Of a stretch of DNA of 64,000 nt, positions 1,277 to 62,279 are shown in pieces; the stretch's first letter is position 1, and every line of letters begins with the position of its first letter. The DNA is from an uncultured Porphyromonas sp. (GTDB lineage: Bacteria > Bacteroidota > Bacteroidia > Bacteroidales > Porphyromonadaceae): NCBI GenBank assembly GCA_934364985.1, contig CAKRMU010000002.1, positions 124,001-188,000 of the forward strand, given 5' to 3'. The notes beneath the pieces are model-generated. The model saw only the letters and a program-made list of their open reading frames with translations, did not search any database and was not told where the DNA came from. The position numbers and the translations under genes were made by a program.

Positions 1277-1382
1277 TTATTGGGAATACAGTCAAGACGG
1301 ATACCCTATATTCATCGGGACAGATACCCTATATTCGTTAAAGCAAATACCCTATATTCGTCAAGACGAATATAGGGTATCC
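1277..1382. repeat. 23-bp dyad array A
   Basis: Three full units start at 1300, 1323 and 1346, exactly 23 bp apart, each with the core ATACCCTATAT. A degenerate unit precedes them (1277-1299), and a terminal mirrored half unit ATATAGGGTAT-CC follows (1370-1382). The array lies between convergent genes (porin and RluA-type synthase). Seen directly; the function is unknown. Confidence 0.9.
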
Positions 1383-1433
1383 TATTTTTCTATTCCGGTA
1401 CTATGTAATTATGATGCTCTATATAGGGACGAC

Positions 1434-2135
1434 TTAGATGCTCTCAAAGAAAGCCCATAATGCGTCATCTTTTGGGTAGGGTGCCGTAATCTCAATAACG
1501 TCTTTTGTGACTGGGTGGATAAAGGATACCGCACGTGCATGAAGCGAAATGGAGCCATTAGGAAGACTTCGTTTGGCACCATACTTGAGGTCGCCCCGAA
1601 TCACAGCTCCTACACTACCTAATTGTACCCTTATCTGATGGTGCCTGCCAGTCTTAAGAGCTACCTCAAGCAGCGTGTAGCGATCGCTATGTCCAATCGT
1701 AGAATAGTCGAGGACGGCTTTTTTGGCACCTTTGGTTCCCTCTGGGACGATATAGGATTTATTCTGCTTTTGATTTTTAAGTAACCAGTTCTGGAGTGTC
1801 GCACTTGGTTGCTTAGGAGACTGCTCTACGATGGCATGGTATACCTTCTTCACCCTATCTTCTCTAAATTGTTCATTCATCCGAGATAGGGCTTTTGACG
1901 TTTTGGCAAAGATAACAATGCCACTCACGGGTCTATCAAGGCGATGTACTACACCTAAATAAACGTTGCCCGGTTTATGGTATTTCTCTTTTAGATAAGC
2001 TTTGACCTTTTCAGGCAAAGGGGTATCCCCTGTGCAGTCACCCTGAGTGATTTCCCCCGCTCTTTTATTAACGGCGATGAGGTGATTATCCTCATAGAGG
2101 ATATCAAAAGCAGAGTTTATGCTTTCTTCTGCCAT
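1434..2135 (-). CDS. RluA-family 23S/tRNA pseudouridine synthase
   Basis: A 233-residue single-domain pseudouridine synthase that isomerises uridine to pseudouridine in rRNA or tRNA. The RluA signature HRLDRPVSG is at residues 64-72, with catalytic Asp67. The downstream motif with GRHHQIRVQL and the C-terminal RAVSFIHPVT segment are also family hallmarks. There is no N-terminal S4 domain, so it belongs to the short RluA/RluC-like branch; the target uridine cannot be deduced. Its ATG overlaps the end of folA by 19 bp, making it the last gene of the operon HU-SPOR, ThiL-like, thyA, folA, pseudouridine synthase. Confidence 0.88.
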   Translation of the reverse strand: MAEESINSAFDILYEDNHLIAVNKRAGEITQGDCTGDTPLPEKVKAYLKEKYHKPGNVYLGVVHRLDRPVSGIVIFAKTSKALSRMNEQFREDRVKKVYHAIVEQSPKQPSATLQNWLLKNQKQNKSYIVPEGTKGAKKAVLDYSTIGHSDRYTLLEVALKTGRHHQIRVQLGSVGAVIRGDLKYGAKRSLPNGSISLHARAVSFIHPVTKDVIEITAPYPKDDALWAFFESI

Positions 2136-2620
2136 ATAGTAAATGAGTAGGGAAATAGGTTACGCTCGTCCGCCTCGTGGTACTCATTTTTGACGCACTT
2201 CCACTTTTGGATGTCAATATCAGGGAAAAAGGTATCAGCGTTATCCCAAGTATGGTGCACGATGGTTACGTACAATTCGTCAGCCACGTCTATACCTTGA
2301 CGAAATAATTCTCCGCCACCTATTAGGAACAATTTCTCGCCTGTAGCGACCTTGATTGCCTCCTCTACACTATGGACGACCTCAGCCCCCTCTTGCTGGT
2401 ACTCTGTATTTCGGGTGACAATGATATTCTGACGACCTGGCAAAGCTCCCTTAGGTAGGCTTTCAAAAGTCTTTCTACCCATAACGATAGGGTAACCCAT
2501 AGTGGCTTCCTTAAAGTGCTTGAGGTCTGCAGGGAGATGGCGTTTCCACGGCATATCACCCTCAAGCCCAATCGCTCCGCTTTCGTCAATAGCTACAATG
2601 ATGATAAGCTCTGTTTTCAT
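2117..2620 (-). CDS. folA: Dihydrofolate reductase
   Basis: A 167-residue DHFR that reduces dihydrofolate to tetrahydrofolate with NADPH in the cytoplasm. The N-terminal strand [13 protein letters not shown], the substrate loop [11 protein letters not shown] with the catalytic acid Asp32, the NADPH-binding MGRKTFES, and IGGGELF are all present. The length is normal for bacterial FolA. The start codon overlaps the thyA stop (4-bp ATGA-type overlap). This pairs it with thymidylate synthase, whose product dihydrofolate it recycles. Nothing unusual was seen. Confidence 0.96.
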
Positions 2621-3411
2621 ACCGATACCTCTGCTTTGATGTGTGGATGTGGGTCATATCCGTCAAGCTGAAAGTCGTCATACGTAAAGTCTTCGATACG
2701 CTTTACGTCCGGATTGATGTGCATCATTGGCAAGGAGCGAGGTGTGCGACTGAGCTGCATGCGAGCTTGATCTAAATGGTTGAGATATAGATGAGCATCC
2801 CCCAAGGTATGTACAAAAGTGCCGGGCTCTAAATCGGTGACTTGTGCCACCATCATGAGGAGCAAAGCATAGCTCGCGATATTAAAAGGCACACCGAGAA
2901 ATACATCGGCACTCCTCTGATACAGCTGTAGGCTGAGCTTGCCATTCGCTACATAAAATTGATAAAGTAGGTGACAAGGAGGTAAGTGCATGTCATCAAG
3001 TGCTCCCACATTCCACGCACTTACAATGATTCTACGGCTATCCGGATTATGCTTAATGGCATTAATGGCATCGGCTAACTGGTCATGCTCGCACCCTTTG
3101 TCGTCCAACCAACGTCTCCATTGAGCTCCATAGATAGGGCCTAATTCGCCCTCTTCGTCCGCCCATTCATTCCATATTCGCACCCCGTTTTCCTGCAGAT
3201 AACGGACGTTGGTATCTCCTTTGATAAACCACAATAGCTCATAAATAATACTTTTGAGATGCAGCTTTTTCGTGGTCAATAAGGGGAAACCATTTGAGAG
3301 GTCAAACCGCATTTGATGCCCAAAGACACTGAGAGTGCCGGTGCCTGTTCGGTCACTTTTCTCCACCCCTTCTGTAAGAATCCTTTCTAATAGTTCTTGA
3401 TATTGCTTCAT
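2617..3411 (-). CDS. thyA: Thymidylate synthase
   Basis: A 264-residue ThyA, the same length as the E. coli enzyme. It converts dUMP to dTMP using methylene-tetrahydrofolate. The catalytic Cys146 sits in [11 protein letters not shown]; the phosphate-binding [11 protein letters not shown] and the [18 protein letters not shown] region are intact. It is followed by folA in the same operon (overlapping codons) and preceded by the ThiL-like gene 9 bp upstream. The thyA-folA coupling is common and functionally logical. Confidence 0.98.
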
Positions 3412-3420
3412 CTTTTATCT

Positions 3421-4437
3421 CTATTGCTCGTAGTGCTGAGGTACAATCGAGGTCTCACTTCCGCCTGAAGAGACGAGGCGTATTCCTTCATCAGTATCGG
3501 TAATATATCCTATTGTATGCACGCCCTCTATCGTCTCTATCATATCTTTAAGCCCCAAAGGGATGGTAAATAGCAACTCATAATCATCCCCCCCATGCAG
3601 ACCAATCATTGTAGGAGACAGCCCCAATTCATCTGCCATAGATACCGTTTCGTGATCGATAGGAAGACGTTGCTCATAAAGCTTTGCCCCTACTTGAGAG
3701 CGATCGCATAGGTGCAAAAGGGCATTTGATACGCCATTTATCACACCCGTCATTGCCGTGGGAATAATGCCGTTTTCCTTTAACTGCTTTAGGATATCTA
3801 TGCGAGCCGAAGGTTTCATTTGCCGACTTAGGATGTACTCACGCCCCTCAAACTTGGGCTGGAAATCCTCCTCTCCGTTAAAGGCTACTTTCTCTCTAAT
3901 CAATAATTGCAACCCCATATAAGCGGCACCGACATCGCCGGTAAGGCAGAGCAGATCGTGCAACCTCGCCCCTTTGCTTTGGAGTGCTTGACCTTTGGCA
4001 ACAGCTCCAATGGCTGTGACGGAGAGGGTAAGACCGGTATAGGACGTCGTGGCATTAAGCTCTATAAGGTCAATACCATAGTATGCCAAAGCATCCTTAA
4101 CGCCTAACATTAATACATCTACATCCTCTACTTGATATTTACGAGAGAGCCCAATAGATAGGCTGATATGGCGAGGCATAGCTCCCATAGCAACCACCTC
4201 AGATACCGCGGCTGTGACGACCTTAAACCCCAAATACTGCAAGGGGAAATAGACCAAATCAAAATGGATGCCCTCTAAAAATAATTTACTCCCTATGACA
4301 AGCTCCTCTCCCTTTTCCGTCTCTATCAGAGCTGCATCATCCGTAAGAGCTGACACAGTATTCGGGAATTTCGGCAGCTCCAAAGCCGATACAATATGCT
4401 TATGGAGCCCCTCCACTCCCAATTTTTCTATCTCCAT
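3421..4437 (-). CDS. ThiL-like protein (thiamine-monophosphate kinase family) with missing active-site residues
   Basis: A 338-residue member of the PurM/ThiL fold, collinear with thiamine-phosphate kinase from the N-terminal DDAAL (33-37) to HGGDDYELLFTI near residue 281. ThiL phosphorylates thiamine monophosphate to the pyrophosphate using Mg-coordinating aspartates. Here several of these are replaced: the usual S-T/K-D before the EGxHFD motif reads GSKLF (49-53), the usual GGDTT/S reads LNATTS (127-132), and the usual D(I/L)SDGL reads GVINGVSN (231-238). The scaffold is otherwise well preserved with no frameshift, so it is probably expressed but catalytically inactive or repurposed. It is encoded between the HU-SPOR gene (27 bp) and thyA (9 bp). 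Family is sure; loss of activity is inference. Confidence 0.82.
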   Translation of the reverse strand: MEIEKLGVEGLHKHIVSALELPKFPNTVSALTDDAALIETEKGEELVIGSKLFLEGIHFDLVYFPLQYLGFKVVTAAVSEVVAMGAMPRHISLSIGLSRKYQVEDVDVLMLGVKDALAYYGIDLIELNATTSYTGLTLSVTAIGAVAKGQALQSKGARLHDLLCLTGDVGAAYMGLQLLIREKVAFNGEEDFQPKFEGREYILSRQMKPSARIDILKQLKENGIIPTAMTGVINGVSNALLHLCDRSQVGAKLYEQRLPIDHETVSMADELGLSPTMIGLHGGDDYELLFTIPLGLKDMIETIEGVHTIGYITDTDEGIRLVSSGGSETSIVPQHYEQ

Positions 4438-4464
4438 TTATCTCGTGTGATTTTCCTAAATACA

Positions 4465-5445
4465 TTAATGCCTATATAACCATGAAGTGCTAAAAGGAGC
4501 GTGTGTCCTAAGCTCCCTTAGATAATCTCGAGCTTCGGCTTCATCGGCAAAACTCTCTGCAAAAAGCCGATACATGCCACTTTTGGAGACCAAAATACCT
4601 CCTTTATCAATAAAGGCATCAAACGAACTATTTTCCTCTAAAAAGCGTCTCATCTCTTCCTCCCCCGAAAGTGTCGCAATGACTACATAGTACCTGCCCT
4701 CTTCATCAGCTTCACTCATCAAAGGATAGCCATAAATCGTCGGCAATACCTCCTGCGATTCTACGGGTTCTACGACTTTTGTCGTCACTACTTCTGGTAT
4801 AGGCGAAGTCACAAGAGCCTTATTCTGTACAGCAACAAACCCCGCTTCGTACTGCTGAAGATCCTGAGGAGACGCGAGCTTATCATTAGGAATCAATAGG
4901 GCTATTGCCGTCAAAGCAACGGCTACACCCCCATATGCCAAATGTCTGATATTAATAGGCAGGTAATAGATATCGCCATCTCTTCTCGCCTTATTTTTAG
5001 ATACCAAAGGTGTCACATTAGTACCTATCGGAGGTAACATTGCGACAGGCTGCAAACCATAAGTATCAACCGAGAAAGGATGATTATCATTTGGGAAAAA
5101 AGAGAGTTGACCATTACGTGACCTGAGCAACTGACCTACCTCGCCCATTTGCACCACTCCGGACGAAAGAAGCTCGCTTTTAACCTCCTCAACATCCTTT
5201 TCTAACAAACGAAGCGAACGCTTATAACCATATGAATAAGCCTCACTATAGCTACGCACCAATATGCCATCATCTTTAGCCAATGCACTATTAAAACTGA
5301 TCCGAGAGCGACTCGGATAGATAAGTCCTTTGGGATGATCCACAACAGATTCCTCAGTGTGTCGAATGAAAGCCCCTAAATTAGGAACCACCACACAAGG
5401 CTCACGGTATAGCAAACGCTCAATATGCCTGATAAGTCTTTTCAT
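4465..5445 (-). CDS. HU-CCDC81/SPOR domain membrane protein
   Basis: A protein of about 326 residues. The N-terminal part (about 1-110) resembles the HU-CCDC81 domains of Bacteroidetes (IERLLYREPCVVVPNLGAF, then FNSALAKDDG). A single hydrophobic segment around residues 170-187 (YGGVAVALTAIALLI) follows. The C-terminal part (about 245-326) has the SPOR-like pattern YYVVIATLSGEEEMRRFL, LVSKSGMYRLFAESFADEAEARDYL, which binds denuded septal peptidoglycan in known members. A role in cell-division or envelope organisation is likely. ATG 5445 was chosen over an upstream GTG at 5451. A TACCTTTG promoter element lies 25 bp upstream, so this gene heads the five-gene operon ending with the pseudouridine synthase. 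Confidence 0.8.
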   Translation of the reverse strand: MKRLIRHIERLLYREPCVVVPNLGAFIRHTEESVVDHPKGLIYPSRSRISFNSALAKDDGILVRSYSEAYSYGYKRSLRLLEKDVEEVKSELLSSGVVQMGEVGQLLRSRNGQLSFFPNDNHPFSVDTYGLQPVAMLPPIGTNVTPLVSKNKARRDGDIYYLPINIRHLAYGGVAVALTAIALLIPNDKLASPQDLQQYEAGFVAVQNKALVTSPIPEVVTTKVVEPVESQEVLPTIYGYPLMSEADEEGRYYVVIATLSGEEEMRRFLEENSSFDAFIDKGGILVSKSGMYRLFAESFADEAEARDYLRELRTHAPFSTSWLYRH

Positions 5446-5469
5446 ACTCACTTCTATTTACTCCCCAAA

Positions 5470-5477
5470 CAAAGGTA
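5470..5477 (-). promoter_or_regulatory. -7 promoter element TACCTTTG for the HU-SPOR/thyA/folA operon
   Basis: A perfect Bacteroidetes TAnnTTTG element on the minus strand, 25 bp upstream of the first ATG of the operon. Confidence 0.65.
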
Positions 5478-6102
5478 CAAAAAAAAGGTAAATGGAGGAC
5501 AATAGATAAGACTCCCTAATAGTTTAAAAAAGCGAAAGAAAAGAGAGGGTTTCAAGCACATTAGCAAGTGCAAATTTAGACTATTGCACCAAAGAATTTT
5601 GGGCAATCAAATTGATTCATCCACTATTCGTTTGTCTATAATGCCATTGAAGCAGGCTAACAATTATTATATATTCACGGGAATTTGGTAGATTTGTATT
5701 TAGGGGGAAAGCTCTATTGCCTATCTGCAACAAGGTATTACATTGTAGAGAGAAGGCTATTAAATAAAAAGGGAATAGTCGTGATTTGTTTGGCTTGAAG
5801 AGGTTAGGCTTATCTGGTAGTTGCACCTTTATTACAATTGAAACCATATAGTTATTTAGACAACCATAACATTCTTTGCTTATGATACCAAAATTTGGAG
5901 AAATCTGGATACCAGCATTATAATACTTAGGATTTAGAAGTTTTTGCTCAAAATCGATTAGGTATATGGTTATGCCAAAATGTGCATCATACTATGTGTA
6001 ATACATCACTTTAAAAAAAGTACTACTTTTGCTCATTATATGATAGGTTGATTACAGCAAAGTCATCAACATAGTTGCTTTGCACCTTAAACTTATGTAG
6101 TA
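5478..6102. other. AT-rich non-coding stretch at the left end of an accessory patch
   Basis: About 600 bp visibly richer in A/T than the flanking operons, with no convincing gene. A minus-strand open frame of 76 codons at 5617-5847 has no recognisable features. The plus strand across about 5640-5850 is mostly open but has stops, so a decayed gene is possible. A TACTTTTG sequence at 6024-6031 fits a -7 promoter element for the genes that follow. Confidence 0.45.
6024..6031 (+). promoter_or_regulatory. Possible -7 promoter element TACTTTTG
   Basis: Matches TAnnTTTG and lies 72-87 bp upstream of the leader ORF at 6103/6118. No clear -33 box was seen, and the sequence context is AT-rich, so a chance match is possible. 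Confidence 0.4.
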
Positions 6103-6180
6103 ATGATAAAGAATACAATGGGAAAAACTTTGCAAGATTTGAGTTTGAAATCAAGAGAGCGTGTATCCAAGAAAGGATAA
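6103..6180 (+). CDS. Possible leader peptide (20-25 aa) 3 bp upstream of the accessory gene
   Basis: A small open frame starts at ATG 6103 (MIKNT...) or at an internal ATG 6118 (MGKTLQDLSL...) and ends at TAA 6178-6180. Only three bases separate the stop from the ATG of the downstream 375-residue gene. This spacing suggests translational coupling or a regulatory leader. The peptide is basic (SLKSRERVSKKG). I recognise no family, and an open frame this short could be chance. Confidence 0.4.
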   Translation: MIKNTMGKTLQDLSLKSRERVSKKG

Positions 6181-6183
6181 TCT

Positions 6184-7311
6184 ATGAAAAAATCAGATAT
6201 ATTTTGGCAGACATATTTGAGTCTCGAAAAAGAATTCATTAATGTTTCTAATTTCATATTTATAACGGATGAAATTACGACCCACGAGCATGGTCAAGAA
6301 ATTACTATACCTTGCAATTCCCAATTAGAGACATTTTCACCCTATATAGCAGATTTGCTTATACGATGTTGCGTCCAAATAGAAGCCATTTCCAAGGAAT
6401 TGTATTATGACAATGGCGGGACAAAATCACGTGGAGATAAAAATTTGTTTTTTGATGAGGATTGCTTAAAATTTATTGATATAAAATGGGAGACACATGC
6501 TAAACGAGTTTTGGTTGTTGCTCCATTCTTCAATTTGACCAAAGAAGATAATCGAGTCCTAAGTCCATTAAAGAATGCCCACAAAAGATCTGGTACATTT
6601 TGGGAAAAGGCATATCAAGCTGTAAAACATGATAGATTTGCGGCTCTCAAATATGGCAATATAAAAGCTCTTATACATTCAATGGCTGCACTTTATCTAT
6701 TGAACTTATATTATAGAAACGACTCTTGGATCATTAAATATCAAGAATTATCCAATAGTGATTTTAGTATGGGGTCTTCAATCTTTGCAGTAAAACGACC
6801 AGAGGCCGGTCCATTATGGTATGGCAATACACCGACCATAAGTGAAAGCCCTTATGTCGTAAGATACCAAGAAGAAGATTACAAGCGAATCGAGGCCATG
6901 CAAAAAGCCGATAAAGAAGCATTAAATCATTATTGGCAACAACAGCCAGAGATCAGGGAACCTGAGTTTTTGGCAATACTTGAAAAAGAAAGGAGAAAAC
7001 AGGAATTGGATCCTACTTATAGAATCTCGTATTTTAGGGAATTGGGTATTTATCGATTGAAAAAATTACTACCCACAAATCTGCCTTTTGAGGAAAGAAA
7101 AGAAGCATTCATCAAAAGCGACGCCTGGAATTGTTGGATAAATCAACATAACACCCATTTAAATCCTGAAGAAATAACGGAAAATAATATCGATGAGGAG
7201 ATTGAGAATGTTGGTAGACGGTGGGGTATGGATATAGAAAAGAAGTATAATACCATGAGTTGGATTCATTTGGCAATGGATGGTGCTATATGTAAAGTAT
7301 ATATACCATGA
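6184..7311 (+). CDS. Hypothetical accessory protein, helical, with W-Y-VKHDR motif
   Basis: A 375-residue cytoplasmic protein without signal peptide or membrane segments. The first 190 residues look all-helical and carry IRCCVQIEAISKELYYDNGG (about 61-80) and the motif W-EKA-Y-QA-VKHDR (140-151), followed by NIKALIHSMAALYLLNLYY. This layout reminds me of hypothetical proteins with HEPN-like helical bundles found in accessory and defence islands, but I see no canonical R-x(4-6)-H catalytic motif, so this is only a resemblance. The C-terminal half is charged and ends with an IHLAMDGAICKVYI segment. Codon use is AT-rich, unlike the housekeeping genes on both sides, which suggests recent transfer. 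It stands alone between two AT-rich non-coding stretches. Confidence 0.7.
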   Translation: MKKSDIFWQTYLSLEKEFINVSNFIFITDEITTHEHGQEITIPCNSQLETFSPYIADLLIRCCVQIEAISKELYYDNGGTKSRGDKNLFFDEDCLKFIDIKWETHAKRVLVVAPFFNLTKEDNRVLSPLKNAHKRSGTFWEKAYQAVKHDRFAALKYGNIKALIHSMAALYLLNLYYRNDSWIIKYQELSNSDFSMGSSIFAVKRPEAGPLWYGNTPTISESPYVVRYQEEDYKRIEAMQKADKEALNHYWQQQPEIREPEFLAILEKERRKQELDPTYRISYFRELGIYRLKKLLPTNLPFEERKEAFIKSDAWNCWINQHNTHLNPEEITENNIDEEIENVGRRWGMDIEKKYNTMSWIHLAMDGAICKVYIP

Positions 7312-7566
7312 TTCATTTTAAATTAAACGCGACAAGTGAAAGTTTCTGCTTCGTTAGTAGTCTGCATTTGATGTTAAAGAATTGGGTAACGGCTGATGTC
7401 AGAGCAATAATATTACCCACAAAAATGTAAAGCCTTGATGATTGCAACAGCCATATGGCGATAGATGGATGCAAAGCTAATACCTAAAAGGGTTGCAGTT
7501 TCAGCAGGGTGAGATACAATTAGCTTCCTATGTTACCGACTTCCTGCATGGGTTGCTTACAAGCCA
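7312..7566. other. Non-coding right flank of the accessory patch
   Basis: 255 bp, moderately AT-rich, with no gene or insertion sequence that I can support. Base composition returns to that of the neighbours as mnmE begins, so one boundary of the inserted patch probably lies here. No flanking direct repeat or tRNA end was recognised. Confidence 0.4.
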
Positions 7567-10466: not shown

Positions 10467-10507
10467 GATACTGGCTATCCGCCTAAACGAATGTAGCCTA
10501 TACCTCG
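10467..10507. repeat. Remnant of a 23-bp dyad array
   Basis: One recognisable unit (10467-10489: GATACTGGCTAT core, linker CCGCCTAAACG), then a degenerate half unit (AATGTAGCCTATACC) that runs into the stop codon of pfp at 10498-10500. It lies between convergent hsp20 and pfp. It is more degenerate than the other arrays. Confidence 0.5.
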
Positions 10508-12549: not shown

Positions 12550-12664
12550 AATACCCGGTATTCGTCGAGACAGATACTTGGTATTAGCCGAAACAAATAC
12601 CTGGTATTCGCCTATGCGTATTCCGTATATCCTCCTAAGCGTATTACGGATACCCCCTACGAGT
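12550..12664. repeat. 23-bp dyad array B
   Basis: Five units start at 12550, 12573, 12596, 12619 and 12642, exactly 23 bp apart. The cores run ATACCCGGTAT, ATACTTGGTAT, ATACCTGGTAT, ATTCCGTATAT, then a degenerate ATTACGGATAC. A CCTAAAAAAG leader precedes. It lies between two divergent promoters (12472-12479 and 12716-12723). Confidence 0.9.
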
Positions 12665-20860: not shown

Positions 20861-20943
20861 GATACTTGGTATTAGTACTAAGAAATACCTGGTATCAGCC
20901 TCAACGAATATAGGGTATTCGTCACGGCGAATATCAGGTATCC
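20861..20943. repeat. 23-bp dyad array C
   Basis: Units start at 20861, 20884, 20907 and 20930 (last one partial). Cores: ATACTTGGTAT, ATACCTGGTAT, ATATAGGGTAT, ATATCAGGTAT-CC. A CTCTAAAATA leader precedes. It lies between the glycosyltransferase and tpx genes. Confidence 0.9.
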
Positions 20944-22162: not shown

Positions 22163-22165
22163 ACA

Positions 22166-26830: not shown

Positions 26831-26937
26831 GATACCCTATATTAGCTCCGACGGATATAGGGAATACGCCACAACGGATATAGGGAATTAGCTCTGACGA
26901 ATATAGGGAATTAGCCGAGGCTGATATCCGGCATACA
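26831..26937. repeat. 23-bp dyad array D
   Basis: Units start at 26831, 26854, 26877, 26900 and 26923 (partial). Cores: ATACCCTATAT, then three copies of ATATAGGGAAT, then ATATCCGGCAT. A CCTAAAAAGA leader precedes. It lies between prfC (end) and tgt (start). Confidence 0.9.
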
Positions 26938-30069: not shown

Positions 30070-32448
30070 TCATAGAGTTACGACCGTAATACCTGCTCCC
30101 CCGAGGTCTACATGCTCTTCCTCGAAGTGGGTAACGGCACTATTCGTTTTGAGATACTCAGAAATGGCTTCTTTAAGGGCTCCCGTACCGGTACCATGGA
30201 GTATCCTCACCGGACTGTATCCAAAGTGGACGGCATCGTCTATGAATTGCGTCGTTGCCGATAAAGCTTCATCCACTCTCATACCCCGGCAATCAAGCTG
30301 AGGTTTGAAGTTAAGTCGTCGCTCGTTAGACTGCTCTTGGATGACTTGAGGCGGGCGATTAGCGACCTTGGATATCATCTTCTCAGTAGGCGTAAGGCGG
30401 TCTAAGGCGATGTCCATTGTGAGAATCCCCATCTGCACTTTTGCCTTTTGCCCCTCAATACTTATGACCTCGCCCACCTCATTACCCTGCTTTAGGGTCA
30501 CTCGGCTTCCCACAACAATTAGCTCCTTATCTACTCGTGACGTCTGGGGCTTTTGTTGCTTACGCCTTAGGTGCTGTCGCTTCTTTTCGAGCTTAGCACG
30601 TGCTATCTGCGTCTCCGCTTTGTTGGCATTCGCTTCCTTGATTTCCTTGATAGTTCTTTCAATAGTAGCATTAGCACCGCTCACAATATCAAGAGCTTCT
30701 TTTTCGGCTTTATCGATAAGTCCTTTACGCTTTTGTGCAATACTATCAAGCTGTCTATCCAGTTTTTCCTGCTTTTGAAGGAGAATTCTTTCTTCGCGTT
30801 TTACCTCTTCACGCTTCCGCTTCCAGTAAGCTTTGTCGCGAATAATATCCTGAAGGAACTTATCTTGTTGCAGGTAATCGGTGCCGACAAGTTGGCTTGC
30901 ATAGTCAATGATTTCGGCAGGTAATCCTATCTTTTTTGCGACCTCGATACCGAAGGAGCTTCCAGGTTGCCCGATGAATAATTCGTACAAAGGCTCGATA
31001 CGACCGCGGTCAAAGAGCATAGCACCATTGACAATACCTTCCTGCTTTTCGGCATAATCCTTGAGGTTCCCATAGTGTGTAGTGATGACGCCGAAGCACT
31101 CTCTGAGACGCAATTGCTCGAGTATAGCCTGTGCGATAGCCCCACCTATGGCAGGCTCGGTACCCGAACCAAATTCGTCGATAAGTACGAGACTATCCTT
31201 AGTGGATTCCCTAAGGGTGGTCTTCATATAGTGCAAGTGGCTGGAGTAGGTACTGAGATCGTTTTCGAGGGATTGTGCGTCTCCGATATCGAGGAATATC
31301 GCATCAAAAAAACGACAAGTGCTATGGGGCATCATCGGGATAGCCATACCACACTGGAGCATATACTGTAGTAGCCCGACTGTTTTTAGGGCAATGGACT
31401 TGCCCCCGGCATTGGGTCCAGAGATGAGTAATATACGATTTTCGGGATTCAGACGTATGGTAAGCGGGACGATCATCCTACCAAGTGCGTTGAGGTGTCT
31501 TTCGAGTATTGGGTGTCTTGCCACCTGCCATTCCATCGCATCTTCTCTCGATATATGGGGTACCGTAGCGGACAATTGTTCAGCAAAAAGTGCCTTAGCA
31601 TGGTTAAAGTCAAGTAGCCCTATCTTATTGCAATTACTCTGAATGATCGAAATATTCTCTCTTACAAAGAGAGTGAATTCTTTGAGTATCCTCTTGACCT
31701 CCTGCTCCTCTTCGCTCTGTTTTTGGCGTATCTTATTATTCATTACAACCATTTGTGCCGGCTCCAAATATAGGGTGCGGCCAGTGGCTGATTCTTCGTG
31801 TACGATACCGTCTATCTCTCTTTTGGCTGAAGGTATTATGGGGAGGAGTAGTCTTCCGTCCCTCATTGTGGGGGTTGCCGTTGCCTCTACCCATCCGGCG
31901 GATTGTGCCTCTCGGAGGATGCTTTGCATCGTCTTACCAAGTGAGCTTTGGAGATCTCGTAGCTCCTGACGTATCGCATTGAGTTGATGACTTGCTGTGT
32001 CTTTGATGCCTCCATCCTCACTCAGGATGTTATTTAGCCGCCGACGGATGTCCACGAGATCTATTAAGCGGTCGGCAATTTGCCGTAATAAAGGGGATCC
32101 TTCAAGGGGCATTAGGCACTGCTTGGCAGCTACTACTGACTGCAGTAGATCGCGTAATGGTCTTAGGGAGGATACCTCTAAATAGCTTCCTTCTGGGCGA
32201 ATCCTAATGAGGGCACTTCGGAGCTCGCCGAAATGAAATGAGGGTATCTCGATGCCTTCAGCTCTGATCTCCATCATCTCAGAAAGCACTTGGAGGGACT
32301 TCCGTAGCTGCTTCTCGTCCGTCATAAAGCTCATCTGAGCCACAAGGTATCTGCTGACCTCGTTGTGGCAAAGCCCCATTAACTCTTGCCTTAGGATGCC
32401 AAACTCCAGTCGCTCCTCCAGAGAATCGTATGCTCTAATATGCCCCAC
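30070..32448 (-). CDS. mutS2: Endonuclease MutS2 (Smr-domain MutS homologue)
   Basis: A 792-residue MutS2, a homologue that suppresses recombination or rescues collided ribosomes rather than repairing mismatches. It has a core helical region, the ATPase Walker A GPNAGGKS with LIDEFGSGTEP as Walker B, and a long coiled coil rich in Lys/Glu/Arg (about 510-630). The C-terminal Smr nuclease domain contains LDCRGMRVDEAL and ILHGTGTGAL. The start codon is GTG 32448, 3 bp after the rseP stop. It is part of the dxr operon. Confidence 0.95.
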   Translation of the reverse strand: MGHIRAYDSLEERLEFGILRQELMGLCHNEVSRYLVAQMSFMTDEKQLRKSLQVLSEMMEIRAEGIEIPSFHFGELRSALIRIRPEGSYLEVSSLRPLRDLLQSVVAAKQCLMPLEGSPLLRQIADRLIDLVDIRRRLNNILSEDGGIKDTASHQLNAIRQELRDLQSSLGKTMQSILREAQSAGWVEATATPTMRDGRLLLPIIPSAKREIDGIVHEESATGRTLYLEPAQMVVMNNKIRQKQSEEEQEVKRILKEFTLFVRENISIIQSNCNKIGLLDFNHAKALFAEQLSATVPHISREDAMEWQVARHPILERHLNALGRMIVPLTIRLNPENRILLISGPNAGGKSIALKTVGLLQYMLQCGMAIPMMPHSTCRFFDAIFLDIGDAQSLENDLSTYSSHLHYMKTTLRESTKDSLVLIDEFGSGTEPAIGGAIAQAILEQLRLRECFGVITTHYGNLKDYAEKQEGIVNGAMLFDRGRIEPLYELFIGQPGSSFGIEVAKKIGLPAEIIDYASQLVGTDYLQQDKFLQDIIRDKAYWKRKREEVKREERILLQKQEKLDRQLDSIAQKRKGLIDKAEKEALDIVSGANATIERTIKEIKEANANKAETQIARAKLEKKRQHLRRKQQKPQTSRVDKELIVVGSRVTLKQGNEVGEVISIEGQKAKVQMGILTMDIALDRLTPTEKMISKVANRPPQVIQEQSNERRLNFKPQLDCRGMRVDEALSATTQFIDDAVHFGYSPVRILHGTGTGALKEAISEYLKTNSAVTHFEEEHVDLGGAGITVVTL

Positions 32449-35162: not shown

Positions 35163-35246
35163 GATACCCGAAATTCGCCACAGCTAATTCCCTATATCCA
35201 TCGTGACGAATTCCCTATATTCGTTGAGGCTGATACAGGGTATCCG
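35163..35246. repeat. 23-bp dyad array E
   Basis: Units start at 35163, 35186, 35209 and 35232 (partial). Cores: ATACCCGAAAT, ATTCCCTATAT twice, ATACAGGGTAT. The array is bounded by CGGATACCC on the left and GGGTATCCG on the right, an exact inverted pair. It lies between divergent dxr and the 98-residue gene. Confidence 0.9.
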
Positions 35247-36281: not shown

Positions 36282-36442
36282 CAAATAATCAGAGATCTTT
36301 GCATAATCCTACCTCCCTTTAGAGGCTAGTCGGACATCCACGACACCAAAACTCCGCCATTATTAAGACATATGAATAAAAACCTACAAGGACCTATCTA
36401 ATCTTTTATATTTTTTGTCACTAAAAATAAATGGTCAAATTC

Positions 36443-44592: not shown

Positions 44593-44699
44593 GATACATA
44601 GTATTAGTCAAAACGAATATAGGGTATTCGTCGGAGCATATTCCGTATATTCGTCAAGTCATATTCCAGGTATCCACTTGAGCGAATACCTGATATCCA
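44593..44699. repeat. 23-bp dyad array F
   Basis: Units start at 44593, 44616, 44639, 44662 and 44685 (partial). Cores: ATACATAGTAT, ATATAGGGTAT, ATTCCGTATAT, ATTCCAGGTAT, ATACCTGATAT-CC. It lies between divergent guaB and the META lipoprotein gene and shows the widest mix of half-sites. Confidence 0.9.
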
Positions 44700-54385: not shown

Positions 54386-54477
54386 GATACCCTATATTCG
54401 CCGAGACGAATACCAGGTATTCGTGTAAACGGATACCCTATATTCGTCCGAGCTAATACCAGGTATTCGCTCCACCA
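54386..54477. repeat. 23-bp dyad array G
   Basis: Units start at 54386, 54409, 54432 and 54455. Cores alternate: ATACCCTATAT, ATACCAGGTAT, ATACCCTATAT, ATACCAGGTAT. A CCTCAAAACG leader precedes. It is in the 630-bp gap between the divergent rnf operon and tRNA-Ala; I see no gene elsewhere in that gap. Confidence 0.9.
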
Positions 54478-56288: not shown

Positions 56289-56298
56289 CGTTAACCCC

Positions 56299-57114: not shown

Positions 57115-57144
57115 AGAGACTTCCTTTAATATTGAAATATCTAC

Positions 57145-58629
57145 TTAGTAAGCCCGAGCAAAAAGTACCCTTCGTGCCGATGGCTTCCCGCTATAAATGC
57201 AGGTCCCCGGGGTTGTGTCATAACCATTAGGGATACATCGAATCGTCGCTTTTGTCTCCTCCTTTATCGCTGCTTCTGTCTCCGGAGTGCCGTCCCAGTG
57301 AGCGAGGATAAAGCCGCCTTTTTCGTCTAAAACCTGCTTAAATTCGTCATAGCTATCAACGATTGTGGTGTGCTCTTCGCGGTATTTCAGAGCTTTTTGG
57401 TAGATATTCTGTTGCATCTCCTCAAGCAGATCCTCTACCTTTTGTACGATACCATCTATTGGCAAAGTAGCCTTCTCAAGCGTATCTCGCCGTACCACTT
57501 CGATGGAGCCATTCTCAAGATCCCTTCCGCCCATTGTCAAGCGAACCGGCACGCCTTTAAGCTCATATTCAGCAAATTTCCAACCTGGTTTTTTATTATC
57601 CGAGTCATCCAATTTGACTGAAATACCTTTGCTCTTAAGTTCGTTGATAATAGGCATCAGTCGCTCGCGGATGCTCGAGAGCTGCTCGTCAGAATTATAA
57701 ATAGGTACAATGACAACCTGAATAGGAGCGAGGTGCGGTGGCAATACGAGTCCATTATCATCAGAATGGCTCATAATCAAAGCCCCCATCAAACGAGTAG
57801 AGACACCCCACGAAGTCGCCCATACAAGTTGCTGATTCCCCTCCTTGTCAGTAAATGTTACATCAAAAGCTTTAGCAAAATTCTGCCCCAAGAAATGTGA
57901 GGTACCGCTCTGGAGGGCTTTACCATCCTGCATCAATGCCTCAATAGTATAGGTATCGACGGCACCTGCAAAGCGCTCCGTCTCACTTTTGTGTCCCACG
58001 ATGACAGGCATTGCCATATAGCTCTCAGCGAATTGCCTATAAACATCGATCATACGCTCAGCCTCTGCACGTGCTTCCTCCGATGTTGCATGAGCCGTAT
58101 GCCCCTCCTGCCAGAGAAATTCTGCAGTCCGTAAGAAAAGTCGTGTCCGCATCTCCCATCGAACTACATTTGCCCACTGATTACAGAGGATGGGCAAATC
58201 GCGCCACGACTGAATCCATCCTTTGTAGGTATTCCATATAATAGTCTCAGAGGTGGGCCGCACGATCAACTCTTCCTCAAGCTTAGCGTCAGGATCTACC
58301 ACCACGCCACTACCATCAGGGTTGCTCTTGAGCCTATAGTGCGTAACAACGGCACATTCCTTAGCAAAACCCTCCACATGGTCAGCTTCCTTACTCAGGA
58401 AAGACTTCGGGATAAAAAGCGGGAAATAAGCATTCACATGCCCGGTTTCCTTAAACATCCGATCCAATTCGTGCTGCATCTTTTCCCATATCGCATAGCC
58501 ATAAGGCTTAATGACCATACAGCCACGCACATCACTACTCTCGGCTAAGTCGGCTTTAACCACCAACTCATTATACCATTTAGAGTAGTCCTCTGCCCGA
58601 GGTGTGAGAGCGTCTATCTTCTTTGCCAT
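57145..58629 (-). CDS. proS: Prolyl-tRNA synthetase (archaeal/eukaryotic type)
   Basis: A 494-residue class II synthetase. The start [44 protein letters not shown] and motif 2/3 regions ([32 protein letters not shown]) match the ProRS form without the bacterial editing insertion; the C-terminal domain ends in Tyr as in this class. A TATCTTTG promoter lies 27 bp upstream. It likely shares a transcript with the DnaQ-like gene. Confidence 0.96.
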
Positions 58630-58656
58630 ACCATTAATGATTTATAATAACTTTCG

Positions 58657-58664
58657 CAAAGATA
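58657..58664 (-). promoter_or_regulatory. -7 element TATCTTTG of proS
   Basis: A minus-strand TAnnTTTG, 27 bp before the ATG. Confidence 0.6.
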
Positions 58665-58770
58665 CCAAAAAAGCCATTGTGAAAGCCGACCTATTAAGAG
58701 AATAAATGAAGAGGGCGAGAAAGAATAATCATAAAATGAGGGTAAGAGTTACGACACCCAACGAAAAACG

Positions 58771-58853
58771 GATTCCCTGAATTCGTCACAGCGAATATAG
58801 GGAATTAACCGCCACGAATACCAAGTATTTGCTTCGAGGTATTCCAGGTACCC
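58771..58853. repeat. 23-bp dyad array H
   Basis: Units start at 58771, 58794, 58817 and 58840 (partial). Cores: ATTCCCTGAAT, ATATAGGGAAT, ATACCAAGTAT, ATTCCAGGTAC-CC. A CGAAAAACG leader precedes. It lies between divergent proS and the ribosomal-protein operon. Confidence 0.9.
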
Positions 58854-59036
58854 GACTATGACCATCGCGAGACATTGATACTCAAAGTGTTATAAAAAGA
58901 GATAAAACGACACAACTCACAATCGTCAAAGCCCTCAGCCACAACATTATAATCCATCTCCTCGTACCAAGCAAAACGAAGTACCCTCTCAGTAAAATAC
59001 AGAGCGAGACAAGAGATAAAAAAGATAACGAAACCC

Positions 59037-59067
59037 TTTGTGGTCTAATTAAATATTGCTACCTTTG
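59037..59067 (+). promoter_or_regulatory. Promoter of the rplM-rpsI operon (TTTG-N19-TACCTTTG)
   Basis: TTTG at 59037-59040 and TACCTTTG at 59060-59067. It is a perfect match to the Bacteroidetes consensus, as expected for a highly expressed operon. Confidence 0.85.
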
Positions 59068-59228
59068 CGTGCCGATTATTATCAAGAGGAAGATGGCACT
59101 TAGACGTGACCCGGGGTACCCACTTTCGCAACAGGCGAGAGAATGATTAGCACTCAACGCCCCAGAGAACGCGAGTAGACCATACTTCTCAATTGATTGT
59201 AAAACAACGAATAACAGAAAGAAGTAAA
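59068..59228 (+). promoter_or_regulatory. Long 5' leader of rplM, possible r-protein autoregulatory element
   Basis: About 160 nt between the promoter and the L13 start, without an open gene. It has local complementary segments (TCGC/GCGA around 59129-59142). Leaders of this length before rplM often bind L13 for feedback control; no family was identified with certainty. A TTAGCACTC at about 59146 has no partner, so it is not CIRCE. Confidence 0.4.
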
Positions 59229-59684
59229 GTGGATACTTTAAGTTATAAGACCATTTCTGCCAATAAAGCAACTGCAGACAAAGAATGGGTGGTTATTGAT
59301 GCCACAGGGCATTCATTAGGTCGCTTAGCAAGTGAGGTGGCTAAGATTTTGAGAGGTAAGCACAAGGCTTGCTACACTCCTCACGTAGACTGTGGCGACA
59401 ACGTGATCATCATCAACGCCGAGAAGGCTATTCTAACCGGTGCCAAGTGGACTGAACGCACCTACCTAAGCTACTCACTCTACCCGGGTGGTCAAAAAGC
59501 CATGTCGCCAGAGAGGATGGTTAAAGTACGTGGATGGGAAGCTCTGTACCGCAAGGTAGTCAAAGGAATGCTCCCCAAAAATAAATTAGCGGCTCAGCTC
59601 CTCAATAATCTCTACGTTTACGAAGGTAGCGAGCACAAACACGAGGCACAACAACCACGTACAATTGAAATAAAAACCAGATAA
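59229..59684 (+). CDS. rplM: 50S ribosomal protein L13
   Basis: A 151-residue L13 starting at GTG 59229 (MDTLSYKTISANKATADKEW), as in related Bacteroidales; the in-frame TTG extension upstream is rejected. ATGHSLGRLASEVAKILRGKH and the HVDCGDNVIIINAEKAILTG segment are diagnostic. It is the first gene of the operon rplM-rpsI-rpsB-tsf. Confidence 0.96.
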   Translation: MDTLSYKTISANKATADKEWVVIDATGHSLGRLASEVAKILRGKHKACYTPHVDCGDNVIIINAEKAILTGAKWTERTYLSYSLYPGGQKAMSPERMVKVRGWEALYRKVVKGMLPKNKLAAQLLNNLYVYEGSEHKHEAQQPRTIEIKTR

Positions 59685-59701
59685 GTAGTTAGAGACAAGA
59701 C

Positions 59702-60088
59702 ATGGAAATAATTAATGCTTTAGGCAGAAGAAAATCGGCTGTAGCACGTGTCTATCTACGTGCTGGTAGCGGTAAGATTACAATTAACGACAAGGATATT
59801 GAGACCTATTTCCCTAATCCATTGCTACAATTTGTAGTGCGTCAGCCATTGAATAAACTTGGCGTAGAGGGGCAATACGATATCACCATTAACATTAAAG
59901 GCGGTGGTTATACCGGGCAAAGCGAAGCAGCTCGTCTCGGTATCGCTCGTGCTTTAGTGAAGATTAATCCTGAAGACAAGCCGGTACTTAAGTCCGAAGG
60001 CTTTATGACCCGTGACCCACGTATCGTAGAGCGTAAGAAGCCGGGACAGCCAGGTGCACGCCGCAAGTTCCAATTCTCAAAGCGTTGA
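59702..60088 (+). CDS. rpsI: 30S ribosomal protein S9
   Basis: A 128-residue S9. The start MEIINALGRRKSAVARVYL and the basic C-terminal tail (RKKPGQPGARRKFQFSKR) that reaches the P-site tRNA are present. It is 17 bp downstream of rplM. Confidence 0.97.
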   Translation: MEIINALGRRKSAVARVYLRAGSGKITINDKDIETYFPNPLLQFVVRQPLNKLGVEGQYDITINIKGGGYTGQSEAARLGIARALVKINPEDKPVLKSEGFMTRDPRIVERKKPGQPGARRKFQFSKR

Positions 60089-60239
60089 TCGCTATATCAT
60101 TGGACTTTCATACGACAATTTATTCGTTTAGTATCTAAGCTTGAGAGATGGCTTCTTTCACAAAAAAGCAAGCTCTACTCCCCATGCTGAGGTCAAGACG
60201 ATTGAGGAATGTAAACGAAATAAACTAAGAAATCAGACA

Positions 60240-61109
60240 ATGTCTACAAGAGTATCATTTGAACAGCTATTAGAGGCTGGCTCGCACTTTGGTCACCTTA
60301 CCCGTAGGTGGAATCCCGCTATGGCTCCTTATATATTTATGGAGCGTAATGGCATCCATATCATAGATCTTTATAAGACAGCAGCCAAAATAGACGAGGC
60401 TGCTGAGGCTCTTAAAAAGATGGCACAGCAGGGTAAGACCGTCCTTTTTGTAGGGACTAAGAAACAGGCACAAGAGGTAGTAGCCGAGCAGGCTCAGGCA
60501 TGCGGAATGCCTTATGTTACCGAGCGGTGGCCGGGTGGTATGCTCACCAACTTCCCCACTATCCGTAAAACCGTTAGCAAAATGGATAACATCGACACGA
60601 TGCTTTCTAATGGGACATTTGAGAATTTATCAAAACGAGAGAAGCTTCAGATAACTCGCCAAAGAGAGAAACTTGAAAAGAACTTCGGCTCTATCAAGAA
60701 TATGAAGTCTATCCCAGCAGCACTATTCGTAGTGGACGTATGCAAAGAGCACATCGCTATCCGGGAAGCTCTACGCCTTGGGATACCTATCTTTGCCATC
60801 TGCGACACCAATGCCGACCCACGTAATATCGACTACGTTATCCCCGCTAATGATGATGCAACGACTTCGATTGAGACCATCTTAGGAGTTATGGCAGAAG
60901 CTATCAAAGAGGGAGCAGTGGAGCACAAGATCACTCAAGCCGATGAAAATGCAGCCGCTGAGCAGAATGAAGGCGAATCTAACACCGGACGCCGTCGTGG
61001 CGGAAGGGGTGTTCGTAGAGAGCGTGTCAAGAGAGAAGATACCGACGCAATGAACGCACGGCTAGCCGATAAGTTCGCAAGTAACGAAGATAAGGAAGAG
61101 GACAAATAA
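60240..61109 (+). CDS. rpsB: 30S ribosomal protein S2
   Basis: A protein of about 289 residues that starts MSTRVSFEQLLEAGSHFGHLTRRWNP; FVGTKKQAQEV, RWPGGMLTNF and ICDTNADP are conserved S2 motifs. A C-terminal extension rich in Gly/Arg and Asp/Glu (from about residue 245) is typical of Bacteroidetes S2. ATG 60240 is chosen; the 33-residue in-frame extension upstream is not conserved. The gap to rpsI is 151 bp. Confidence 0.96.
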   Translation: MSTRVSFEQLLEAGSHFGHLTRRWNPAMAPYIFMERNGIHIIDLYKTAAKIDEAAEALKKMAQQGKTVLFVGTKKQAQEVVAEQAQACGMPYVTERWPGGMLTNFPTIRKTVSKMDNIDTMLSNGTFENLSKREKLQITRQREKLEKNFGSIKNMKSIPAALFVVDVCKEHIAIREALRLGIPIFAICDTNADPRNIDYVIPANDDATTSIETILGVMAEAIKEGAVEHKITQADENAAAEQNEGESNTGRRRGGRGVRRERVKREDTDAMNARLADKFASNEDKEEDK

Positions 61110-61180
61110 AGTCACATTTGCACTCCCTTGACCAAACGATGATAGCTTACGGCTAATAGACTTTGGGAAGAGAGACTAAG

Positions 61181-61230
61181 CACCTCCTTGCCCACGTAAC
61201 ATCAAATACTCGTAGGGCGAGGAGGTGTTT
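61181..61230 (+). terminator. Attenuator-like hairpin between rpsB and tsf
   Basis: CACCTCCTTGCCC (61181-61193) pairs with GGGCGAGGAGGTG (61215-61227) over 13 bp with one wobble, followed by TTTGACTT. It could reduce read-through into tsf or protect the rpsB 3' end. Confidence 0.55.
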
Positions 61231-61274
61231 GACTTAAACGAAACAACGATAAGAAATAATAAAGGAGAAAGATT

Positions 61275-62099
61275 ATGGCAGTATCTATGCAAGATATTAA
61301 GCACCTACGCGAATTGACAGGTGCTGGTATGATGGACGTCAAAAAGGCTTTAGAGGAGGCTAATGGCGACCATGACAAAGCTATTGAAATACTTAGGAAA
61401 AAAGGACAAGCTATCGCAGCTAAACGTTCGGACAGAGAAGCTGCTGAAGGTTGTGTAATGGCACATACCGAGAATGGCTTAGCCACCCTTGTCGCACTCA
61501 AGTGTGAGACCGACTTTGTTGCTAAAAACGAAGATTTTGTTAAGCTGACTAAGGCTATCCTTGATAAGGCTGTCGCTGAGAAGCCTGCCACGATGGAAGC
61601 ACTCCTTGGATTGCAAATAGATGGGCGGACAATCGAGTCTCTTATCACTGAGCGCTCAGGTGTAACTGGCGAAAAGATGGAGCTCGGTGCTTACGAACAA
61701 TTCACTGCACCTGCAGTTGCATCCTACATCCACGCTGGTAGTATGCTCGGAACCATCGTAGGCTTTAATGAACCTCTTGATGCAGAGCTGGCTAAAGAGA
61801 TTGCCATGCAGATAGCCTCTATGAATCCTATTGCTGTCACCGAAGAAGGTGTACCTGAGCATGTAAAGCAACAAGAGTTGGAGATCGCCATGGATAAAGC
61901 TCGCCAAGCCGGCAAACCAGAGAACCTACTTGAGCGTATCGCACAAGGCACTCTTGAGAAGTATTATAAGGAGAATACACTCCTCAAGCAAGAGTTTGTC
62001 TTTAGCGAGAACAAACAAACCGTAAACGATGTATTACACGCAGCGTCAAAGTCTTTAACAGTAACTGAGTTTAAGCGGTTCAACCTTAATCAGGACTAA
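61275..62099 (+). CDS. tsf: Elongation factor Ts
   Basis: A 274-residue EF-Ts that exchanges GDP on EF-Tu. The UBA-like start IKHLRELTGAGMMDVKKALEEANGDHDKAIEILRKKG and the core TDFVAKNEDF are canonical. It is the last gene of the operon and is followed by a perfect terminator. Confidence 0.97.
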   Translation: MAVSMQDIKHLRELTGAGMMDVKKALEEANGDHDKAIEILRKKGQAIAAKRSDREAAEGCVMAHTENGLATLVALKCETDFVAKNEDFVKLTKAILDKAVAEKPATMEALLGLQIDGRTIESLITERSGVTGEKMELGAYEQFTAPAVASYIHAGSMLGTIVGFNEPLDAELAKEIAMQIASMNPIAVTEEGVPEHVKQQELEIAMDKARQAGKPENLLERIAQGTLEKYYKENTLLKQEFVFSENKQTVNDVLHAASKSLTVTEFKRFNLNQD

Positions 62100-62128
62100 G
62101 TTTCGGGGATCATAAACAAAAAAAATTA

Positions 62129-62168
62129 GCGAGGAGTGTATTTCGAAATACACTCCTCGCTTCATTAT
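62129..62168 (+). terminator. Hairpin terminator of tsf
   Basis: A perfect 15-bp stem, GCGAGGAGTGTATTT (62129-62143) / AAATACACTCCTCGC (62146-62160), followed by TTCATTAT; preceded by an A-run, so it may also act on the opposite strand. Confidence 0.8.
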
Positions 62169-62210
62169 AATTCCCTTCTTCTGTACTTAGTTTCCCCAAA
62201 ATAGACGAGA

Positions 62211-62279
62211 AATACCTGATAATAACCGAAGTACAGATCCGGCATACGTCACAGCTAATAACAGGAGGCACCCTAACGT
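62211..62279. repeat. 23-bp dyad array I (degenerate)
   Basis: Units start at 62211, 62234 and 62257 in 23-bp register; cores are eroded (ATACCTGATAA, then AGATCCGGCATAC, then ATAACAGGAGGCACC) but the linkers still read ACCGAAGTA and GTCACAGCT. It lies between convergent tsf and comM. Confidence 0.65.

Follow-up and report, generated by a model that had tools for sequence, protein, structure and literature searches.

Dispersed repeats in bacteria are normally grouped by their sequence. In Porphyromonas gingivalis, the BrickBuilt description reports many intergenic copies of a MITE that contains a 23-nt tandem repeat (1 to 22.8 repeats), a leader of up to 285 nt, a tail of up to 318 nt and IS5-like terminal inverted repeats (PMC4596501). 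REPs, the CGTC-tagged repeats among them, form stem-loops of 20-40 bp whose tag is unpaired, and the REP/BIME/REPIN families are described as intergenic palindromes of many copies that are often species-specific, with BIMEs alternating in orientation (PMC3733652). The STAR elements of Staphylococcus likewise form interspersed intergenic repeat arrays that vary between species (PMC3532100). BrickBuilt apart, titles and abstract openings, largely outside the subscription literature, gave no description of arrays such as those analyzed here.

Nine intergenic arrays of 23-bp units had been proposed for the window, the whole stretch of 64,000 nucleotides under analysis. Each array was scored by a 23-bp weight matrix derived from the other arrays only (leave-one-out, LOO), with ten whole-window shuffles as the null, and independently by a motif-free detector that uses only period and dyad pairing and whose shuffle maximum was 42 at period 23. 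Eight of the arrays were clear at the places proposed (Table 1). Their top units scored 23.8-28.7 bits LOO versus a mean shuffle maximum of 13.7-14.1 bits, and the detector peaked at period 23 in 8/8 (37-55, compared with 22-37 at periods 19-22 and 24-26). The detector value exceeded the shuffle maximum in six of the eight; the arrays at 35163 and 58771 fell below it, yet are clear by the matrix. The ninth, at 62211, did not rise above chance in either analysis and could perhaps be a decayed array. The single-unit remnant predicted at 10467 was confirmed as one unit exceeding all ten shuffles. The original prediction counted about 29 complete units; we found 35 in register in the eight arrays, partial ends included.

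Table 1. Array features in the window. Detector values are for period 23 unless another period is given.
Positions	Feature	Support
1278..1382	Array, 4 clear units (the first at 1300) and a decayed one at 1278	LOO 27.2 bits; detector 52
10467..10502	Single-unit remnant	19.4 bits; ten-shuffle maximum 15.8; without array signal
12550..12655	Array, 5 units, divergent gene pair	LOO 28.3 bits; detector 55
20861..20942	Array, 4 units	LOO 26.6 bits; detector 47
26831..26935	Array, 5 units	LOO 25.2 bits; detector 50
35163..35244	Array, 4 units	LOO 25.8 bits; detector 41, just below shuffle maximum 42
44593..44698	Array, 5 units, divergent gene pair	LOO 23.8 bits; detector 43
54386..54468	Array, 4 units with a 46-bp superperiod, flanked by a - strand gene and a + strand tRNA-Ala	LOO 28.7 bits; detector 51; TRF period 46, 93% matches
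58771..58853	Array, 4 units, upstream of prolyl-tRNA synthetase	LOO 25.0 bits; detector 37, below shuffle maximum 42
62211..62279	Claimed ninth array, unsupported	LOO best 11.8 bits versus mean shuffle maximum 13.8; detector 28 at period 23, 33 at period 22

Within the window, the units keep an exact register: the 35 units carry 279 substitutions from the consensus and 0 indels, the absence of indels being as originally claimed. The description of the unit as two palindromes also held, by the both-strand consensus ATACCnGGTATTCGTCnnGACGAATACC, which is symmetric partly by construction since both strands were aligned, and by dyad pairing in the best register, which averaged 0.56 over the eight arrays versus 0.38 in random windows (99th percentile, 0.475). 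The ends described for the arrays, GGATACC at the start and GGTATCC at the close, were found in several arrays but not in all, and only about 10 A-rich bases recur by eye at the left edges.

The window arrays resemble BrickBuilt in their 23-nt tandem period, intergenic location and many copies, and by eye in two dyads 11.5 bp apart, but their sequence is different, and they comprise 4-5 units as against 1 to 22.8 repeats in BrickBuilt (PMC4596501). The best window match to the BrickBuilt repeat AGAYCATARTATCCTCTCRTRTG had 5/23 mismatches and lay at 32420, off any array, which rules out identity with BrickBuilt. The five best window matches to the GAGACCTTTGCA-like, 12-nt BrickBuilt terminal inverted repeat had one mismatch (once, at 36292), two (three times) and three (once); none of these five was within 600 bp of an array, that at 36292 being about 1 kb from the nearest. 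No long leader or tail common to the window arrays was seen by eye, and the BrickBuilt repeat occurred with at most 3 mismatches in 2/38 family genomes. With neither the repeat nor the terminal inverted repeats matched at the arrays, the suggestion that they are diverged BrickBuilt MITEs failed and must be regarded as extremely improbable.

A sequence-blind detector was run over periods 16 to 30 on 22 sampled Porphyromonadaceae genomes, and intergenic arrays of period 22 or 23 were found in 18 of them. Pooled with the window, the genomes gave 44 calls at period 22, 17 at period 23 and 16 at the other periods, and shuffles gave no call at period 22 or 23. Within the window the units are strictly 23 bp, as originally stated, but most array-bearing relatives use 22 bp; relative to the 22-bp units of one such genome, G029, the extra base of the window unit is at the core dyad. 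The unit sequences, as read, are mostly unrelated between genomes with such arrays, and the array family had shifted between two species that are 79-93% identical. CCGG was the core centre of 20 cores in G029, out of at least 33 (the eight commonest kinds listed), versus TCGG in 20/35 and CCGA in 10/35 cores of G034. Across species, in the window and its relatives, the 22/23-bp geometry outlasts the unit sequence.

The register is also kept within single genomes. Of 101 anchored elements in G040, 86 have their first and last cores 68 bp apart, although those 86 carry 617 substitutions; the remaining 15 distances (24, -20, 125) arise where a core is mutated or a match is stray, and are consistent with the same register. 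Steps were mixed in G019 (86 of 22 bp, 11 of 23 bp). The strict dyad measure was 0.40 in G040, 0.39 in G004 and 0.46 in G028, none of them above the 99th percentile of random windows. The arrays of these three genomes are phased, but only part of their cores are palindromic. In genomes whose arrays came from the dyad-using detector, this measure is biased upward.

Median array intervals were 7.2-9 kb in the four genomes tested, the window included. Close pairs were too few in two of the four and variance was low in three: spacing was even by CV in the window (CV 0.26, P 0.003), G029 (smallest interval 5.5 kb, P 0.0008) and G040, and in G019 for close pairs only. No G040 interval of 95 was below 2 kb and two were below 3 kb, whereas the null means were 16 and 25 and 0/2000 draws were as low. 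In G019, 4/53 intervals were below 3 kb versus a null of 13.7, but the interval CV was not significantly low (P 0.12-0.36). Close pairs were also weakly depleted among E. coli REP loci, taken for comparison (P 0.055-0.066, n=26), and these loci were not even by CV. Array positions were not detectably conserved between species in an ortholog test (16/34 versus 46/132, P 0.23), nor between G040 and other species (P 0.09-0.20); a second ortholog test of shared array slots comprised 30 orthologs only and was without power. About 40% of intergenic regions of at least 110 bp carry an array in G040 and G019, and chance sharing is therefore common. Conserved slots with changed sequence were suggested by some cases by eye and rejected, the ortholog test being non-significant.

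Selfish MITE- or REP-like elements deserve consideration; they would be spread by a putative transposase binding the phased units and spaced by transposition immunity or by selection against recombination of nearby copies. The G040 elements resemble a single ordered unit copied many times, and they lie either way round (53 +, 51 -, which look even by counts alone); an array of G029 is absent at the orthologous place in G034 in one case, and two contig-internal synteny breaks between these genomes fall at arrays, others at N runs or contig ends being uncounted. Two imported-looking gaps of G040, one ICE-like and one prophage-like, lack the main G040 family, and each bears one period-22 array with its own sequence; the genus, moreover, has other dispersed families (BrickBuilt). 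However, a crude comparison of the flanks of 85 G040 elements showed no direct similarity of the target-site-duplication kind (z -0.8), and G040 flank complementarity likewise lacked signal (z 0.9). RAYT-type transposases (PF01797) occurred in 7/38 genomes, with gene-array proximity about as expected from density, and among the places examined an array lay near the gene only in G033 and G040, so that no consistent RAYT/REP link emerged. A REP tag (GTAG/CGTC) needs an unpaired end tetranucleotide, whereas CGTC in the window consensus sits inside the linker dyad, paired with GACG; the units of G040 also contain CGTC, whereas those of G033, by eye, do not. The REP/BIME/REPIN descriptions compared contain no 22/23-bp phasing (PMC3733652), and the E. 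coli loci are not evenly spaced by CV; STAR elements combine a short motif with 40-44 bp spacers and vary in repeat number, and the passages compared do not describe helical dyad phasing (PMC3532100). One mobile family also leaves the 22/23 geometry in unrelated sequences unexplained, and we consider a selfish origin somewhat unlikely.

Were the arrays species-specific DNA-uptake signals, with competent cells preferring array DNA and molecular drive spacing the arrays, they would be, to our knowledge, the first in the phylum Bacteroidota. Known uptake signals consist of one motif of about 10 bp and do not form arrays, in contrast to the phased 90-bp arrays here. USS/DUS dialects differ between species (PMC7811141; PMC3630211), and in Haemophilus the sequences are described as relatively even in distribution, about 1 kb apart on average, and as underrepresented in newly acquired segments (PMC7811141). 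The arrays, too, are spaced and species-different, and both imported-looking gaps are devoid of the main G040 family; yet each gap holds a phased array of other sequence, and a single literature search gave, by title, no Porphyromonas uptake sequence, which leaves this reading improbable. Palindromic DNA that extrudes as cruciforms and buffers supercoils would explain the alternating inverted repeats, and the sequence could drift because structure alone matters; such a function does not need an exact 22/23-bp step or a species-wide consensus, and the G040 and G004 arrays are weakly palindromic, making it decidedly improbable. The original prediction also raised RNA hairpin chains, to which bidirectional terminators may be added. 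A and T runs flank the G040 arrays, but in co-directional regions the sense strand carried about as many G-U as A-C mismatches (144 v 155 in G040a, 88 v 74 in G019), and arrays showed no gene-direction bias and no excess in convergent regions (G040, G019). Orientation relative to the gene strand was likewise neutral in G019 (P 0.10, 0.40, 0.79; runs of like orientation, P 0.06), and at the one G029 array inspected for this, the ordinary terminator-like hairpins are separate from it. In non-co-directional regions, A-C exceeded G-U on the arbitrary + strand (G019, 110 v 49; window, 36 v 14), which we guess reflects element orientation. An RNA role is accordingly very improbable.

The remaining suggestion of the original prediction, protein-binding arrays or nucleoid organizers, became the leading possibility by virtue of the phasing, the zero indels, the conservation of geometry free of sequence, and the spacing. 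That geometry outlives sequence argues for selection acting on a DNA-protein assembly and not on a mobile copy, and the neutrality to gene direction is observed as well. We tentatively propose that the arrays are phased binding platforms for a putative oligomeric protein that coevolves with its site and probably organizes the chromosome. Each array would be a platform of about 4-5 phased dyads (80-110 bp), with the DNA-binding oligomer docked along a single helix face, a dimer on every core, and neighbours held in contact by the 22-/23-bp repeat of about two turns. Platforms every ~7-9 kb may mark and organize the chromosome, e.g. by anchoring it or by setting topological barriers that separate supercoiled domains. 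Species would lose the unit sequence and keep the geometry because the protein, whose existence we infer, and its site change together. Against the platforms stand the low strict dyad scores in G040, G004 and G028, the step mix and non-significant CV of G019, the phased arrays of other sequence in the imported-looking G040 gaps, the G029 array absent in G034, the weak close-pair shortage that E. coli REP loci share, and the undetected conservation of position, such conservation being what one might expect of a fixed architectural role.

An extension of the platform proposal, a family-wide chromosome-organizing system of Porphyromonadaceae in which spaced platforms of fixed geometry persist while site and predicted protein turn over by species, is an unlikely possibility; it would be the bacterial counterpart of rapidly evolving centromere repeats with the proteins that bind them. 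In these arrays, geometry persists beyond sequence, with 22/23-bp phasing, about 4-5 units and one array per 7-9 kb where measured. If a binding protein were found, rapid coevolution of site and protein, and perhaps the marking of supercoil domains in Bacteroidota, would have a tractable example.

The 23-bp arrays of the window were apparent both from Tandem Repeats Finder and from direct reading. Since a weight matrix trained on the arrays favors them, the 23-bp matrix was rebuilt for each array with only the remaining arrays as training set. Nine arrays had been proposed in the original prediction; eight of them held several units each far above shuffled sequence, but the one at 62211 had no such unit and no 23-bp peak. 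The proposed remnant at 10467 was supported by one unit above shuffled sequence. The claim that no array contains an indel held: the 35 in-register units of the eight arrays carried 279 substitutions from the consensus and 0 indels. The symmetrised consensus was ATACCnGGTATTCGTCnnGACGAATACC; as both strands were entered, its symmetry is partly by construction, and the dyad measure served as the independent check. Hybrid cores (e.g. ATACC joined to ATATA) were seen in the window arrays and in the cores of genomes G040 and G034, which suggests two half-site classes. The genes flanking the eight arrays were convergent in 1 case, co-directional in 3 and divergent in 4, and 20 window proteins scanned with Pfam and NCBIfam were mostly ordinary housekeeping and envelope proteins. 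The prolyl-tRNA synthetase had its best match in a Porphyromonas contig (79%), and the nearest genomes by protein among the 38 of the family group were G033, G038 and G032 (88-89%).

A three-core sequence model matched 3 of the 38 genomes at E ≤0.01: it had 41 matches in G029 with both strands included, 6 in G034 and 2 in G025, the last without the appearance of an array. Among at most 148 candidates scored per genome, it matched none of the genomes nearest to the window by protein. The arrays of G029 and G034 consist of CTAATACCGGTATTAG units at period 22, compared with 23 in the window. A core-linker-core pattern with up to 3 mismatches occurred at 210 places in G029 and at 0 in the backward control; being palindromic, the pattern is found on both strands.

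The same geometry was found with other sequences in a sample of 22 genomes (8 to about 81 kb each, save G040 at 860 kb). Intergenic tandem-repeat rows, which may overlap, had maxima at periods 22 (57 rows) and 23 (19), followed by 21 (12). A motif-free detector, which scores direct repetition together with dyads at half the period, made 44 calls at 22, 17 at 23, 7 at 21 and 9 over the remaining periods from 16 to 30 in the intergenic DNA of these genomes and the window; in 1.33 Mb of shuffled sequence its calls were a single one at 26 and another at 29, with 0 at 22 or 23. Considering periods 22 and 23 only, 22 alone was called in 13 genomes, 23 alone in 3, both in 2 (G009 and G019) and neither in 4 (G020, G017, G010 and G032, the last sampled over just 8 kb), and the window itself showed 23 only. 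Six of the 18 genomes with calls at 22 or 23 (G035, G038, G036, G008, G012 and G015) had a single call each. Sensitivity was low in G040, with 4 intergenic calls at its threshold versus 104 arrays by profile. Calls are not all of array build, as the one in G038 resembles an 11-bp direct repeat, not alternating palindromes. The TCCACGTGGA arrays adjoin 21-bp GATTCCTCCGAAGTTTCATTT-type repeats in composite elements (L177 and L179 in G004; L180 and L182 in G028). In 79 other loci, mostly from Bacteroidota (1.42 Mb including coding DNA), calls by the detector numbered 9 at period 22 and 2 at period 23, versus 21 at 18, 21 at 21, 19 at 24 and 15 at 27. Because a few of the nine period-22 calls resemble true palindromic arrays, the phenomenon may reach beyond Porphyromonadaceae.

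Array units read directly and positions of individual arrays (G, genome; C, contig; L, sampled locus)
Source	Position	Unit	Remark
Window	1278, 12550, 20861, 26831, 35163, 44593, 54386, 58771		array starts
G033		AGTTGCAACT	direct reading
G039		AGTTCnGAACT	direct reading
G015		GTTTTAGCTAAAAC	direct reading
G019		GAGGGATATCCCTC	direct reading
G009		TTTCCACnnGTGGAAA	direct reading
G004, G028		TCCACGTGGA	direct reading
G029	C2:31410		in segment absent from G034
G034	C73 (L275:3846-3972)		joined flanks
G034	C92 (L272:2904-3023)		at synteny break
G040	C4:160963-161086		first gap
G040	C4:257227-257310		second gap
G038	L142:2693-2796		detector call, resembles direct repeat
Bacteroides-/Prevotella-type loci	L012:2229-2304, L066:537-630, L014:4430-4510, L075:5376-5454		palindromic, period 22

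The profile search of G040 yielded 104 arrays in 860 kb. The distance from first to last core was exactly 68 bp in 86 of 101 anchored elements; these 86 carried 617 substitutions from consensus, and the remaining 15 kept the same register, allowing for a mutated core or stray match. Arrays occupied 93 of the 232 intergenic regions of at least 110 bp (about 40%) in G040 and 55 of 144 in G019 (GC 62%; 55 arrays in 460 kb). Core-core distances in G019 were 22 (86), 44 (15), 66 (8), 88 (2), 23 (11) and 21 (1), with 8 others. No bias by flanking-gene direction was seen in G040 (-- 36, -+ 21, +- 21, ++ 12, omitting one array that lacks two neighbors and 13 that fall in predicted ORFs; background of regions ≥120 bp, -- 83, -+ 49, +- 51, ++ 45) or in G019 (+- 13/32, ++ 18/48, -- 11/35, -+ 13/29). 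The 13 arrays, of 104, lie within predicted ORFs of at least 100 aa, several of which are probably spurious gene calls.

The DNA of G029 and G034 is 79-93% identical across long stretches. Of the G029 cores read, at least 33, the centre was CCGG in 20, whereas in G034 it was TCGG (20/35) or CCGA (10/35); the array family has therefore shifted between them. One G029 array sits in a 353-bp segment absent from G034, where G034 has one terminator-like hairpin and G029 two. Two G034 arrays sit at synteny breaks relative to G029: one has on its left the left flank of a G029 array and on its right the right flank of a different G029 array, and the second lies exactly at the break. Arrays can therefore mark rearrangement points. 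RAYT-type transposase genes occur in L244 (G034) and L245 (G029) amid other repeats, visible as recurring translated stretches in several frames.

Three gaps of more than 15 kb in G040 lacked the main array family. The first (150-182 kb) looks like an ICE, given five proteins including two integrases, a topoisomerase, a DUF4099/DUF3945 protein and PcfJ. The second (225-268 kb), with one Mu-type portal protein, one Mur ligase and three proteins without family among five, is a likely, if thinly supported, prophage. Each of these two gaps held one period-22 array of a sequence unlike the main family, which leads us to conjecture that imported elements may carry the array dialect of another host.

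Arrays were spaced along the chromosome. In G040, 96 arrays in 800 kb had a median interval of 7.2 kb, with 0 intervals below 2 kb and 2 below 3 kb versus 16 and 25 for random eligible intergenic regions (0 of 2000 draws as low). This lack of close pairs persisted with length-matched draws, where the coefficient of variation (CV) was also low (0.65, P 0.0013). The median in G019 was 7.2 kb as well, and 4 of 53 intervals fell below 3 kb versus 13.7 expected (so few in 0 of 2000 draws; 0.0005 length-weighted); its CV was not significantly low (P 0.12-0.36). The minimum interval among 11 G029 arrays was 5.5 kb (P 0.0008), with a CV of 0.43 (P 0.004; 0.006-0.01 in a second computation), and the eight window arrays had a CV of 0.26 (P 0.003) and a minimum of 4.4 kb (P 0.015). 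A control with a known repeat used 300 kb of E. coli K-12, whose 26 REP loci were not even by CV (0.99 versus a null of 0.90). Considering that these loci weakly lacked close pairs (P 0.055-0.066), dispersed repeats in general may share part of the spacing effect. Mobile-element immunity or a DNA-uptake drive could also be the source of the spacing.

The arrays had been proposed as possible diverged relatives of BrickBuilt, the P. gingivalis MITE with a 23-nt repeat. The two have the same period and, judged by eye, the same dyad spacing; neither sequence nor terminal repeats are shared. Given that G009 (probably P. gingivalis) carries both BrickBuilt and short arrays of the present kind, our conjecture is that BrickBuilt may be a MITE that arose around an array of this type. 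The short G009 arrays (L165 and L166) are not BrickBuilt and have differing units (TTTCCACnnGTGGAAA, ATTTATATATAAA and TTTATACTATAAA). REP, STAR and uptake sequences each have some traits in common with the arrays, but the phased geometry is absent from the portions of their descriptions compared. RAYTs are too rare for a consistent link to the arrays, and in regions of known sense strand there was no sign of RNA-level selection. Collectively, the fixed, indel-free phase, the nearly constant size, the spacing and the turnover of sequence would be best explained by a predicted DNA-binding oligomer. Judged from sequence, the spacing of the arrays points to a putative role in chromosome organisation.
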